From Dactylosporangium sp. AC04546 (lineage in GTDB: Bacteria > Actinomycetota > Actinomycetes > Mycobacteriales > Micromonosporaceae), in assembly GCF_022095675.1 (NCBI RefSeq), contig NZ_JAHYSG010000071.1:1-64000 (forward strand): a stretch of DNA of 64,000 nucleotides. Reading direction: 5' to 3'. The position numbers and the translations under genes are program-made. Under the pieces are notes generated by a model, which saw only the letters and a list, made by a program, of their open reading frames with translations, did no database searches and was not told the DNA's origin. Numbering within the stretch: the stretch's first letter is position 1; each line of letters starts with the position of its first letter. Below, one piece after another: positions 4,262 through 6,535 of the stretch.

Positions 4262-4337
4262 TGGAGGCCGAAGCCGGACTCGAACCGGCGTGTCTCGTTT
4301 TGCAGACGAGCCCCTGACCTGACTCGGGCATACGGCC
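4262..4337 (-). tRNA. tRNA-Cys(GCA)
   Basis: Full cloverleaf of 76 nt: anticodon loop CTGCAAA, T loop TTCGAGT, CCA encoded. The acceptor stem has one U-U mismatch (position 6). It is the last tRNA of the 12-gene array in the direction of transcription. Five bases separate it from tRNA-Arg. Confidence 0.9.
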
Positions 4338-4342
4338 GTGCG

Positions 4343-4414
4343 TGCCCCCGGCTGGAATCGAACCAGCGCCTCGACCCTCGGAAAGTCGCACTCTGTCCGC
4401 TGAGCTACGAAGGC
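4343..4414 (-). tRNA. tRNA-Arg(CCG)
   Basis: Cloverleaf of 72 nt with acceptor GCCTTCG paired to CGGGGGC, anticodon loop TTCCGAG and T loop TTCGATT. CCA is not encoded. Only one base separates it from tRNA-Tyr. It reads the CGG codon. Confidence 0.9.
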
Positions 4415-4415
4415 G

Positions 4416-4496
4416 TGCGGGTGGAGGGATTCGAACCCCCTCAGCGATGCAGCTGGGTTACAGCCAGCCCCGACTCTCCAACGTCGGCGCACCCGC
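4416..4496 (-). tRNA. tRNA-Tyr(GTA)
   Basis: 81-nt class II tRNA with perfect acceptor GCGGGTG/CACCCGC, anticodon loop CTGTAAC and a long variable arm, as expected for bacterial tRNA-Tyr. CCA is not encoded. Confidence 0.9.
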
Positions 4497-4531
4497 GTGG
4501 TGACCTCCGGCCCCGTGGTCCGGTGGTCGCG

Positions 4532-4603
4532 TGCCCGCACCAGGTTTCGAACCTGGGCCCTCCGCCGTGTGAAGGCGGCGCTCTCCCCCTGAGCTACACG
4601 GGC
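4532..4603 (-). tRNA. tRNA-Val(CAC)
   Basis: 72-nt cloverleaf with anticodon loop TTCACAC and T loop TTCGAAA; CCA not encoded. Its 5' base directly abuts the encoded CCA of the initiator-like tRNA, with no spacer. Confidence 0.9.
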
Positions 4604-4682
4604 TGGGGGCAGGGGTGGGATTCGAACCCACGGTTTCCGGCTTATGAGACCGGCGAGGACGGCCGAGCTCCTCTACCCTGCA
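4604..4682 (-). tRNA. tRNA-Met(CAT), variant initiator-like
   Basis: 79 nt including an encoded CCA. The anticodon loop is CTCATAA. The 1-72 position is an unpaired U-C, and the D stem GAGG/CCTC has A11-U24, both hallmarks of initiator tRNA. The D loop contains AGCTCGG as in initiators. However, the anticodon stem is CCGGT/GCCGG, so only two of the three diagnostic G-C pairs at 29-31/39-41 are present (position 31-39 is U-G). It looks like a divergent initiator; an elongator Met or tRNA-Ile2 role cannot be excluded. Confidence 0.75.
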
Positions 4683-4684
4683 AG

Positions 4685-4759
4685 CAGCGCGGACGGGATT
4701 CGAACCCGCACATGTCCCGGGTGAAAGCCGGGCGACTCTCCCGATTCGTCCACCGCGCC
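4685..4759 (-). tRNA. tRNA-Glu(TTC)
   Basis: 75-nt cloverleaf: acceptor GGCGCGG/CCGCGCT with G1-U72, anticodon loop CTTTCAC, discriminator G as usual for Glu. CCA is not encoded. Two bases separate it from the initiator-like tRNA. Confidence 0.87.
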
Positions 4760-4775
4760 AGGTGGTCGTGCAACG

Positions 4776-4848
4776 TGCCCCCGGCGCGATTCGAACGCGC
4801 ACCGTCGACGTCCTCAACGTCGTGCCTCTGCCGTTGGGCTACGAGGGC
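4776..4848 (-). tRNA. tRNA-Leu(GAG) anticodon on class I scaffold
   Basis: 73-nt cloverleaf with acceptor GCCCTCG/CGGGGGC, perfect 5-bp anticodon stem CGACG/CGTCG and loop TTGAGGA, giving anticodon GAG (CTC codon, Leu). The variable region is only five bases (ACGGT). Bacterial tRNA-Leu is normally class II with a long variable arm, so the charging identity is uncertain. CCA is not encoded. Confidence 0.8.
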
Positions 4849-4851
4849 GTG

Positions 4852-4872
4852 GGCCGGCGGCGTTCGCCGGCC
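4852..4872. other. Hairpin in tRNA spacer (Leu-Gln)
   Basis: Perfect 8-bp inverted repeat (GGCCGGCG/CGCCGGCC, loop of 5) filling most of the 27-bp spacer. It may be a processing site for the array transcript (inference). Confidence 0.5.
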
Positions 4873-4875
4873 GAG

Positions 4876-4948
4876 CTGCGGGCGGAGGATTCGAACCCCC
4901 AATGTCCGGTTCAGAGCCGGATGTGTTGCCGGGTTACACCAGCCCGCA
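4876..4948 (-). tRNA. tRNA-Gln(CTG)
   Basis: 73-nt cloverleaf with acceptor TGCGGGC/GCCCGCA, anticodon loop CTCTGAA, discriminator G and variable loop CATT, matching the usual bacterial tRNA-Gln pattern. CCA is not encoded. Confidence 0.9.
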
Positions 4949-4952
4949 AGGG

Positions 4953-4979
4953 GGCCGGCCGGGTGATGGCCGGCCGGCC
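4953..4979. other. Hairpin in tRNA spacer (Gln-Gly)
   Basis: Two GGCCGGCC blocks, each self-complementary, separated by 7 bases in the 43-bp spacer. They can form an 8-bp stem. Confidence 0.5.
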
Positions 4980-4991
4980 ACGGAAGAACGG

Positions 4992-5066
4992 AGCGGCAAC
5001 CGGGATTCGAACCCGGGACCTTCGCCATGGCAAGGCGACGCTCTGACCTGACTGAGCTACAACCGC
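4992..5066 (-). tRNA. tRNA-Gly(GCC)
   Basis: 75-nt cloverleaf: anticodon loop TTGCCAT, D arm GCTC/GAGC, T loop TTCGAAT. The lower acceptor stem is weak (one U-U mismatch and G-U pairs). CCA is not encoded (TCCG follows). Confidence 0.88.
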
Positions 5067-5078
5067 GAGTGCACTGCG

Positions 5079-5152
5079 CACCGCCGACCGGATTCGAACC
5101 GGCGACCTCGGCCTCGACAGGGCCTTGCTCTGACCTGCTGAGCTACGACGGC
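5079..5152 (-). tRNA. tRNA-Asp(GTC)
   Basis: 74-nt cloverleaf with anticodon loop CTGTCGA and discriminator G. It has a G1-U72 pair and an A-G mismatch at the top of the anticodon stem. CCA is not encoded. Confidence 0.86.
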
Positions 5153-5168
5153 GAGTGGGTCCGGACGA

Positions 5169-5192
5169 GGACCGCTCCCCCCAGGGCGGTCC
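5169..5192. other. Hairpin in tRNA spacer (Asp-Gly)
   Basis: Seven-bp inverted repeat GGACCGC/GCGGTCC with a 10-base loop in the 56-bp spacer. Confidence 0.4.
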
Positions 5193-5208
5193 CCGACCCG
5201 GCACCGAG

Positions 5209-5282
5209 AGCGGTAGCGGGGACTCGAACCCCGTCGCGGCCTGCTTGGAAGGCAGGTGTCCTGCCGGTTGGACGACTACCGC
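5209..5282 (-). tRNA. tRNA-Gly(TCC)
   Basis: 74-nt cloverleaf with perfect acceptor GCGGTAG/CTACCGC, perfect anticodon stem CCTGC/GCAGG and loop CTTCCAA. CCA is not encoded. Confidence 0.9.
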
Positions 5283-5297
5283 ACGTCAATCAAAACG

Positions 5298-5371
5298 TCG
5301 CCCGTCCGGGGGTTGAACCCGGTCTTCCGGAGTGAGAATCCGGGGGTCTACCTACCTCAGCCTCACGGGCG
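5298..5371 (-). tRNA. tRNA-Glu(CTC)
   Basis: 74-nt cloverleaf with acceptor CGCCCGT/ACGGGCG (5' C), anticodon stem CCGGA/TCCGG and loop TTCTCAC. The D stem is weak and the T loop is TTCAACC instead of TTCGANT. It is the first tRNA in the direction of transcription. The discriminator A is unusual for Glu. Confidence 0.82.
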
Positions 5372-5402
5372 ATTGTTCTCGCGTGCCAAACCACTGTGGA
5401 AT

Positions 5403-5408
5403 TGTCAA
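5403..5408 (-). promoter_or_regulatory. Possible -35 of the tRNA array
   Basis: A perfect TTGACA on the minus strand about 32 bp upstream of the first tRNA base. The hexamer 17 bp downstream (CACGCG) is a poor -10, so the assignment is tentative. Confidence 0.35.
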
Positions 5409-5465
5409 TCAACGCAGGTTTCATCGTGAATCCGCGGTGCCGCGAATTCGTGCGGGAATTGCGCA

Positions 5466-5500
5466 AAGAAAAACCGCCCGGTCCCCGGCGGGGAGGGCGG
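5466..5500 (-). terminator. Intrinsic terminator after 32-codon ORF
   Basis: On the minus strand CCGCCC...GGGCGG with an inner CCCCG/CGGGG extension is followed by TTTTTCTTT. A real T-run is rare in this window. It lies 22 bp after the small ORF stop and upstream of the tRNA array. Confidence 0.8.
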
Positions 5501-5522
5501 CGGTCGCGTCGCTGACGGGATG

Positions 5523-5621
5523 TCAGCCGCTCCACCGACCCGAGGCCGGTCCGTATTCACCAAGCTCACAGACACACAGATAGCGGAGATCGCCGCCGAG
5601 CTGCTGGGTGTGCCGTCCCAT
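5523..5621 (-). CDS. 32-residue peptide, unknown function
   Basis: ORF of 33 codons starting at ATG 5621. GAGGGG is placed 7 bases upstream, and a promoter (TTGTGC, 17 bp, TACTGT) lies 57 bp before the ATG. An intrinsic terminator follows the stop. The peptide starts MGRHTQQLGG and has a central YLCVCELGEYG with two Cys, both encoded by TGT, an uncommon codon in such GC-rich DNA. No signal peptide or membrane segment is visible. It could be a leader peptide controlling the downstream tRNA array, a stand-alone small protein or a peptide precursor; no modification enzyme lies nearby. The complete set of expression signals is the main evidence. Confidence 0.55.
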   Translation of the reverse strand: MGRHTQQLGGDLRYLCVCELGEYGPASGRWSG

Positions 5622-5678
5622 GACCGATCCCCTCTGTTCTCTCGGGCTCTTCTCTCGTGTGCCCTGCCGTTGATGAAT

Positions 5679-5707
5679 ACAGTACGCACGATCCACGCCC
5701 CGCACAA
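5679..5707 (-). promoter_or_regulatory. Promoter of 32-codon ORF
   Basis: On the minus strand TTGTGC (5702-5707) and TACTGT (5679-5684) are separated by exactly 17 bp. The start of transcription would be near 5672, giving a leader of about 50 nt. Confidence 0.6.
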
Positions 5708-5709
5708 TC

Positions 5710-5875
5710 CTATTTATCGTCCGCCATCAGACCGCACTGATATGCGAAGGCCACCGCCTGCGCCCGGTCCCGCGCGCCGATCTTCGCCAGAATGCGTTTC
5801 ACGTGCGTCTTCGCGGTCGATTCGGCGATGGCGAGGAGCCCGGCGATCTCGGCGTTGGACCGCTCCCCACCGGAG
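5710..5875 (-). pseudogene. Remnant of LuxR/NarL-type regulator (C-terminal HTH)
   Basis: The frame encodes [20 protein letters not shown] and then [15 protein letters not shown], the classic C-terminal helix-turn-helix of NarL/LuxR response regulators, ending at a TGA (5710-5712). Upstream the similarity stops near 5875 where the divergent acetyltransferase gene begins. No receiver domain, linker or start codon remains in frame. The 5' part of the gene has therefore been lost, probably by deletion. A residual stand-alone HTH protein is unlikely for lack of a start. Confidence 0.75.
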
Positions 5876-5889
5876 GTACGGTCCCTGGC

Positions 5890-6411
5890 GTGCGCACCCT
5901 GGTCTCCCCGACGACAACCCTGCACGCGGCCTGGCTGGCGGCCCGCGACGACTGGGGCCGCGGCGTCCACCAGGACGGCGCCGGCCTGCACGAGGACGAC
6001 GAGGTCGACTCGCCGGCCGGCTTCGCCGCCTGGGTGGCCCGCCTGACCGCCCAGTCGTCCGGCCCGGTCGCCGACGGCAGGATCCCGGCCACGTACTGGT
6101 GGATCGTCGAAAACGGCACGGTGCTGGGCGCGATCACGCTGCGCCACCACTTGAACGCCCGCCTGCTGGAGGCCGCCGGCCACATCGGCTTCGGCGTGCG
6201 ACCGTCGGCCCGCGGCCGCGGCGTCGCCTCGTGGGGCCTGGCCCGGGTGCTGGACGAGGCCCGCACCCGCCGCCTCCCCCGGGTCCTGTTGTCGTGCGGC
6301 ACGGACAACCCGGCCTCGGCCCGCGTGATCGAACGCAACGGCGGCGTCCTGGAGGACGTCCGCGACACCTGGCTCGGCCCGGCCCGCCGCTACCGGATCG
6401 ACCTCGGCTGA
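5890..6411 (+). CDS. GNAT-family acetyltransferase
   Basis: Protein of 173 residues from a GTG at 5890. The GNAT acetyl-CoA loop is visible as [20 protein letters not shown], followed by [18 protein letters not shown], the usual Asn-rich helix and beta turn of this fold. It is probably an N-acetyltransferase acting on a small molecule or protein amino group; the substrate is unknown. It starts right at the breakpoint of the LuxR remnant. Confidence 0.85.
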
Positions 6412-6535
6412 GCGGTCGTCCACCCTCGTAGGCCGGCTCCGGCGGCGCGAACCGGACCGCCACGCTCCTCAGACCAGCCCGACGGCCGCGCCGGCGGGCA
6501 CGGTGCCGCCGCAGACGCACGGCGGCGATCCAGGG

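Follow-up and report, generated by a model that had tools for sequence, protein, structure and literature searches.

Introduction

The trp and his operons are controlled by leader-peptide transcription attenuators. Here we analyze an array of twelve tRNA genes in Dactylosporangium sp. AC04546 whose head region has the anatomy of such an attenuator. The array lies in a stretch of 64,000 nucleotides (the window), positions 1 to 64,000 of contig NZ_JAHYSG010000071.1 (C71) in a 13.0 Mb assembly of 348 contigs (GCF_022095675.1). Reserve tRNA arrays are known from mycobacteria, their plasmids and phages (PMC5966550; PMC12803027), and the role of redundant tRNA arrays has been called unknown (PMC12803027). 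The 26-tRNA trn operon of Anabaena is silent and is released by translation stress via the repressor TrcR (PMC10272220), and phage tRNAs counter defences that cut tRNAs (PMC11555353; PMC13096335). At ilvB1 of Mycobacterium tuberculosis, a ribosome at the leader stop lets the terminator form while a stalled ribosome prevents it (PMC13236596), and leader open reading frames (ORFs) can sense antibiotics (PMC12121999). The literature we searched, mostly without subscription papers, contains no report of leader attenuation or of boxA at tRNA arrays, and the words leader, promoter and terminator do not occur in the main text of the two mycobacterial reports (PMC5966550; PMC12803027).

The array was first noticed from the sequence alone, and this original prediction described it as accessory, possibly acquired, less constrained than a core set, and able to back up translation under stress or tRNA loss. 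Our results show that the array is accessory, and that with three other arrays of the genome it forms an almost non-redundant second set for 20 amino acids. It is preceded by a conserved leader ORF, terminator-like hairpin and boxA, and the amino acids of the leader peptide match those of the array. We regard it as very likely that the array belongs, as one of several modules, to a dispersed tRNA reserve which senses its own need via leader-peptide transcription attenuation.

Results

Anatomy of the array head

The leader region lies upstream of the array, beyond the interval 4262-5371 to which the original prediction was confined. All of its features are on the minus strand. A putative promoter consists of a -35-like hexamer, TTGTGC (5702-5707; a consensus match only, the same in D. 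sucinum), placed 17 nt before a -10-like hexamer, TACTGT (5679-5684; conserved in D. sucinum). A Shine-Dalgarno-like AGAGGGG (5629-5635) is followed by a leader ORF of 32 codons, MGRHTQQLGGDLRYLCVCELGEYGPASGRWSG (5523-5621, stop included), and by a hairpin, GCCGCCC...GGGCGGT (5473-5501), which resembles an intrinsic terminator by sequence criterion and has a T-rich run on its 3' side (5465-5472). The segment 5465-5505 folds with -21.9 kcal/mol (z -2.44). Beyond the terminator, at 5391-5408, is an rRNA-type antitermination boxA, TTGACAATTCCACAGTGG, with related elements in the 16S-23S spacer and the 16S leader of the genus. The window contains three of the features by which attenuators are recognized, namely an ORF with a ribosome-binding site, an intrinsic terminator by sequence, and sensor codons. 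The order of promoter, leader ORF, terminator, boxA and tRNA genes together with the matching sensor codons is a transcription-attenuation anatomy.

At the head of all four arrays in this genome, a ribosome-binding site and short leader ORF are accompanied by a terminator-like hairpin. A strict finder detected such hairpins at 38 of 51 array heads, and in the 35 leaders that were measured among these the distance from stop codon to hairpin was 14-23 nt. An automated leader rule, whose distances were derived from these same arrays, recognized a leader at 31/38 array hairpins and at 0/44 other terminator-like hairpins (29 of the loci); the window is among the seven misses, as AGAGGGG is outside the rule's list of ribosome sites. 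Many leaders share a GRWRG-like C-terminal end, and the peptides are otherwise very different in sequence. Pairing of the leader end with the terminator arm had a mean z of -1.43 over the 35 leaders, with 12 below -2. When a ribosome was masked at the leader stop of the window during folding, the terminator was left free.

The ORF immediately upstream of the array promoter (5710-6423, minus strand) ends in a LuxR-type helix-turn-helix piece and looks like a regulator fragment; it overlaps a GNAT acetyltransferase gene (5803-6411, plus strand).

Match between leader peptide and array

The window leader includes E, G, D, Q, L, M, V, Y, R and C, every one of the ten amino acids that its array serves, while F, I, K and N, none of which the array encodes, are absent from it. 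The same holds for the other leaders of this genome, as that of the C53 array contains all nine amino acids of its own array, that of C131 contains W, L, S and R, and that of C69 contains I, N and S; MTAIAIIWAGPSSRNPRWRGQR is an example of a small-array leader for Ile/Asn/Ser. Over 23 Dactylosporangium arrays, with Met left out, 138 of 138 amino acids were matched, while the best of 200,000 leader swaps within genomes gave 134 (P = 5e-6) and the mean for random peptides was 109. For this genome alone, its own pairings gave 25/25 compared to a mean of 15.0 for wrong leader-array pairings. The counts include tRNAs called only with relaxed scoring (Glu-CTC, the Phe of C53, several Ser-CGA and one Ala-TGC), and with default-threshold tRNAs only the match was 137/137.

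The match extends to other genera. Split arrays from three of these gave 39/40 in 7 arrays (P = 8e-4), twelve long arrays gave 179/185 compared to 172.0 after swapping (P = 7e-4), and 19 less redundant representatives gave 116/117 compared to 78.3 +/- 4.7 with shuffled leaders. At the codon level, the leader of the same array contains a codon that the tRNA can decode for 165/172 isoacceptors, the mean after synonymous shuffling being 158.1 (P = 0.005). The 14 long-array leaders contain 16-20 amino acids within 38-43 codons, and 5 of these hold all 20 in 40-43 codons, where about 15 would be expected (P 0.0005-0.0015).

The 35 measured leaders had been selected on position, ribosome site and end when the amino-acid match was still unnoticed, and the others come from the 13 heads without a hairpin. 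The first-ATG form was used for G005_C124 (D. siamense), G006_C21 (D. aurantiacum) and G016, and for the first two the short forms give a full match as well. The leader of G035_C19 was set as an internal ATG after the match had been seen; the ribosome-site rule later gave the same ORF. Six leaders were left out of the totals, of which G030_C10 matches 4/4, G030_C2 3/3 (no ribosome site), IMG298 17/18 (no ribosome site), IMG299 8/8 and that of Curtobacterium 12/12 (no ribosome site), the sixth being G048 (see Discussion).

A leader rule written before new loci were examined was then applied to 70 of these, i.e., 37 of 39 viral-contig stretches (two were already known) and 33 genome regions around 34 motif matches; the details of array clustering were set in the test script. 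An array was present near the motif in 32/70 loci, and 25 of these 32 had a leader by the rule. No array lay near the motif in the remaining 38 loci, which means that this short motif is not specific by itself. In the 25 arrays the match was 309/319, compared to 250.6 (sd 5.9) for random peptides and a mean of 291.7 for swapped leaders (maximum 308 in 20,000 swaps). Without repeated entries (L378 and L321; L386 had no leader) it was 276/286, a total in which L332 and L339 share one leader and both are still counted. Viral-contig leaders of quite different sequence fit equally well, e.g., MSRSPSKQQLRGWYFHAPAAATLPEDNCIPTNKAVVV, which has all 20 amino acids.

Distribution of boxA

The motif TTGACAANTNCACAGNGG, with one mismatch allowed, had 20 matches in seven genomes, of which 9 are at arrays, 9 are of the rRNA-spacer form and 2 are elsewhere (reversed control, 1). 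The spacer form begins about 42 bp before the 23S rRNA (Rfam-checked for 4/9), and two 16S leaders contain TTTGAGAACTCAACAGGG. This distribution shows that boxA marks arrays and rRNA operons and not the ordinary tRNA genes of these genomes. Within this genome, boxA is clear at C71 and C53 and partial at C131. It is also found at arrays from another family of the order, after tRNA-Trp in a Curtobacterium plasmid array, and ahead of the array on a Mycolicibacterium plasmid; in many long arrays tRNA-Trp lies between the terminator and boxA. Motif scans of viral contigs led to arrays at 3/6 stretches, and at 9/37 new stretches.

A TTGACA at the array head was considered as a promoter with a palindromic operator, and this was dropped as the element is the rRNA boxA. 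In D. aurantiacum, a perfect boxA (C28, L283, at about 4993) is followed by tRNA-like sequence in which no tRNA was called, possibly a former array.

An accessory set split over four arrays

The genome has 82 matches to the Rfam tRNA model (RF00005), and ARAGORN found 86 tRNAs in the fetched stretches. All 12 isoacceptors of the window array have at least one copy outside the four arrays. The array does not hold the only copies of its isoacceptors, and the set is therefore accessory, as the original prediction had proposed. The other three arrays are on separate contigs, with 11 tRNAs and a weak Phe on C53, 6 tRNAs and an HNH nuclease gene on C131, and 3 tRNAs on C69. Together, the four arrays cover 31 isoacceptor types and 20 amino acids (Phe weakly), and only Leu-CAG and Arg-ACG are duplicated. 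Random draws from the types of nine long arrays gave 8.8 duplicates compared to the 2 seen (P = 1.5e-4). The arrays of D. siamense likewise span 20 amino acids, and those of five other species 13-18. This non-overlap supports a partition of one set, which either duplication with loss or gene movement could have produced; the species compared are related, and D. fulvum and D. roseum are not significant (P about 0.07).

Outside the arrays, low-scoring tRNAs are found at C98:23900-24057 and C11:81879-92605, comprising Ala-AGC, Glu-CTC, Arg-GCG and an odd unassigned gene.

The twelve tRNA genes and their conservation

The array occupies 4262-5371 on the minus strand, and its conservation rules out chance. 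ARAGORN with default settings called 11 tRNAs (4262-5282), and the Rfam model placed 10 above its gathering score, with Tyr and Glu-CTC below. The first gene, tRNA-Glu(CTC) (5297-5371), is the twelfth tRNA. It is under the default thresholds of both programs, is called with relaxed ARAGORN scoring, and has 74/75 positions in common with its counterparts in D. sucinum, D. fulvum and D. roseum. In order of transcription it is followed by tRNA-Gly(TCC) (5208-5282), tRNA-Asp(GTC) (5078-5152), tRNA-Gly(GCC) (4990-5066), tRNA-Gln(CTG) (4875-4948), tRNA-Leu(GAG) with a short variable loop (4775-4848), tRNA-Glu(TTC) (4684-4759), tRNA-Met(CAT) (4604-4682), tRNA-Val(CAC) (4531-4603), tRNA-Tyr(GTA) (4415-4496; ARAGORN only), tRNA-Arg(CCG) (4342-4414) and, as the last gene, tRNA-Cys(GCA) (4262-4337), and apart from Tyr these were called by both ARAGORN and Rfam. 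The single-strand array of twelve is thereby confirmed, with the anticodons first listed for it. CCA is encoded only in the Cys and Met genes, also as predicted, and the intergenic gaps measure 0-55 bp where 0-56 bp had been given. With 12 tRNAs in 1.11 kb the array has the density of a tRNA array unit (at least 2 tRNA genes per kb, PMC5966550), and it is smaller than the at least 20 tRNA genes quoted for such units in the same paper.

The short variable loop of the tRNA-Leu was considered as an abnormality and dropped, as 2 non-array tRNA-Leu of the same genome also have it. Plus-strand ORFs antisense to the tRNAs (4415-5335) yield similar-looking repetitive peptides and are probably spurious.

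The tRNA bodies are conserved above the spacers, with aligned identities (gaps left uncounted) of 96.9 vs 87.4% in D. sucinum, 91.8 vs 50.6% in D. fulvum and 88.3 vs 52.0% in D. roseum; Gln(CTG) and Arg(CCG) went undetected in the arrays of D. fulvum and D. roseum. The original description as less constrained holds in part. Array tRNAs do have more unpaired stem positions than other tRNAs (mean 1.31, n = 32, vs 0.62, n = 55), an excess partly due to Glu-CTC, which its relaxed model fits poorly. However, stem changes are mainly double and compensatory, so that pairing is largely kept. Between this genome and D. aurantiacum, 32/120 anticodon-stem pairs had changed on both sides with pairing retained, and 5 changes broke it.

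Identity between array tRNAs and core copies is about 66%, and the anticodon stem (44%) is the region of greatest difference. Accelerated evolution of this stem was rejected as proof of nuclease escape, and is kept only as a possibility, because the excess among core tRNAs is comparable, though smaller. Odds were 0.86-2.26 in array pairs and 1.35-1.43 in comparisons between core tRNAs at similar divergence, among them 1.35 (p = 0.13) for the core tRNAs of an alphaproteobacterium against those of this genome.

Relatives and genomic context

D. sucinum is the nearest of the genomes searched, with 94% identity over the array and about 90-93% in the flanks. The assembly has a contamination value of 11.5%, which matters little here because the window contig and D. 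sucinum are collinear. The arrays are chromosomal in complete genomes of the genus, i.e., in D. vinaceum, D. fulvum and D. roseum (at 2.15 and 3.80 Mb in the last of these). At the window locus, flanking sequence aligns on one side or both in D. sucinum, D. fulvum, D. roseum, D. siamense and D. aurantiacum, with partial alignment in D. vinaceum, and the flanks of C131 align in all six other Dactylosporangium species; the window array and C131 have therefore been inherited within the genus. The array had been described as possibly acquired; recent acquisition or mobility finds no support in this genus, as the same genes flank the array on at least one side in five species. The flanks of C53 and C69 align with D. 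sucinum only. At the C69 site of D. sucinum the array is missing and an apparent tRNA-Ser end remains, which suggests a deletion.

Related arrays are found on plasmids and viral contigs, and the long ones, in relatives and on viral contigs, reach 41 tRNAs. One common gene order is shared by nine long arrays of other genera (19-36 typed tRNAs each), and the split arrays of this genome largely retain it (125/129 gene pairs agree).

The HNH endonuclease gene (PF14279/PF01844) of C131 lies inside the array, between tRNA-Leu(CAA) and tRNA-Leu(CAG), and several long arrays contain a relative of it, in most cases between Gly(GCC) and Gln(CTG). We do not claim a strong link that would make this gene an array marker, as in several genera (Hamadaea, Actinoplanes, Nocardioides and others) relatives had no tRNA called in the fetched flanks. 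A metagenome-assembled genome of Acidobacteria (L191) has a 30-tRNA array near an HNH relative, where the boxA pattern was searched and not found. On Bifidobacterium breve pMP7017 (L287), the gene after an 18-tRNA array is annotated as RNA ligase family protein and could serve tRNA repair.

Discussion

In the proposed mechanism, RNA polymerase would initiate upstream of the leader ORF. When charged tRNAs are plentiful, the ribosome would get to the leader stop and cover the last codons (..GRWSG), the downstream hairpin would form, and transcription would end ahead of the tRNA genes. When a tRNA encoded by the array is depleted, the ribosome would stall within the leader, which would free the RNA of the last codons to pair with the 5' arm of the hairpin, so that termination fails and the tRNAs are made. 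The boxA past the terminator, together with Nus factors, may then allow polymerase to cross the untranslated tRNA region without Rho termination. As the codons of each leader include those for the amino acids that its array serves, the four arrays would each respond to loss of their own tRNAs, and depletion of any tRNA of an array would release that array. The natural trigger may be tRNA-cleaving toxins, defence nucleases or other tRNA loss, and antibiotics may also deplete tRNAs. The predicted role as a backup under stress or tRNA loss is supported, and the leader makes it specific.

Several observations weigh against this reading. The window leader pairs with its terminator no better than shuffled sequence does (z -0.26), and the minimum-energy fold of the full length shows the terminator; the switch would therefore have to be kinetic. 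Val-CAC has no codon-level match in the window leader. Among the heads, 13/51 have no hairpin by the strict finder (9 of these have an ORF led by a ribosome site and 4 do not), and the T-run of the C69 hairpin is poor. The 23 Dactylosporangium arrays are not independent samples, being from seven related species. Long-array leaders are imperfect (179/185) and gain little over swaps, as nearly all amino acids occur in each; under the pre-set rule 7/25 leaders miss something and 7/32 new arrays are leaderless. The G048 leader matched 8/14 with the start first chosen, and 13/14 with a start led by a ribosome site. No boxA was found before C69 and only a partial form at C131, nor was boxA found in the plasmid arrays of Bifidobacterium, Arthrobacter and Tsukamurella or in phage StAugustine. 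In addition, the arrays of D. fulvum and D. roseum are without tRNAs for 7 amino acids, and the small tRNA clusters on C98 and C11 of this genome have no leader.

The array could instead be a relic, passed on by descent, of an anti-defence tRNA array from a plasmid or phage, unregulated in its present host and decaying. The related arrays on actinobacterial plasmids and viral contigs would fit such an origin, as would the low identity of array tRNAs to core copies (about 66%) and the loss of arrays or genes in some species, e.g., the apparent deletion in D. sucinum which left the tRNA-Ser end. We consider this very unlikely, as tRNA bodies are conserved above their spacers, double changes maintain base pairing, and leaders match arrays 138/138 across seven species. 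Only slightly less plausible, and still improbable, is that the leader senses general translation arrest by ribosome-targeting antibiotics, like the whiB7 leader, with the amino-acid match as a by-product. The anatomy does resemble the leader ORF and terminator of the whiB7/ilvB1 type (PMC13236596), and the 14 long-array leaders do contain 16-20 amino acids in 38-43 codons; however, swapping leaders within this genome destroys the match (25/25 falls to 15.0), and the leaders of small arrays include the few amino acids of these arrays.

The two remaining explanations seem to us very improbable, and to an equal degree. If the leader ORF encoded a functional small protein that is no sensor, with the hairpin merely its terminator, the ribosome sites and the shared GRWRG-like end would be accounted for, but not that the peptides diverge greatly while their content tracks the array, nor that the conserved C-terminal codons face the terminator arm. 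Constitutively expressed supplementary tRNAs for codon-usage adaptation would be expected to add gene copies for common codons; every isoacceptor of the window array is already present outside it, and a terminator-like hairpin stands before the tRNAs at 38/51 array heads.

Self-sensing by attenuation probably extends beyond this genome. We think it likely, with somewhat less confidence than for the window array, that actinobacterial reserve arrays on chromosomes, plasmids and viral contigs are self-sensing systems for tRNA replacement, in which a leader of about 40 codons reads up to 20 aminoacyl-tRNAs and releases the full set, while split sets partition leader codons and tRNA genes together into independent amino-acid-specific modules. 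The leader-array match makes the mechanism testable, and allows the response of each array to be predicted from its sequence. If true, amino-acid attenuation extends from biosynthesis operons to tRNA supply, and cells and mobile elements can directly counter defence nucleases and toxins that destroy tRNAs.

Among known systems, the arrays resemble the tRNA array units described for mycobacteria, which are likewise dense tRNA clusters redundant with the core set, serve 19-20 amino acids, often have an embedded HNH endonuclease gene, and occur on chromosomes, plasmids and phages (PMC5966550; PMC12803027). In contrast to these units of at least 20 genes (PMC5966550), the window array has 12 tRNAs and is one of four dispersed modules. 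With the trn operon of Anabaena it would have in common a large reserve operon that is normally silent and turned on under translational stress (PMC10272220). There, the ribbon-helix-helix repressor TrcR is in control (PMC10272220), whereas here the missing tRNA would be sensed directly and in cis, by way of a leader peptide and its terminator. Phage anti-defence tRNAs and SegB also combine tRNA replacement, as we propose it here, with a nuclease gene near tRNAs (PMC11555353; PMC13096335); however, the window array is not on a phage, and SegB is a GIY-YIG nuclease while that of the arrays is HNH.

Antitermination by boxA and NusB-NusE is described for rRNA (PMC6614801, PMC5676007, PMC5725501). 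The boxA of the arrays is nearly the same element as in the rRNA operons of the genus, but it stands at the heads of tRNA arrays, often after a first tRNA-Trp. The ilvB1 and whiB7 attenuators of M. tuberculosis have a leader ORF with sensor codons, an intrinsic terminator and a competing pairing (PMC13236596). The head of the window array has such an ORF and, by sequence, such a terminator; a competing pairing is predicted over the 35 leaders on average (mean z -1.43), and in the window leader it is no better than in shuffled sequence (z -0.26). Unlike the known attenuators, this one would govern tRNA genes and not enzymes or regulators, and it would sense many amino acids simultaneously, matched to those of its own array.

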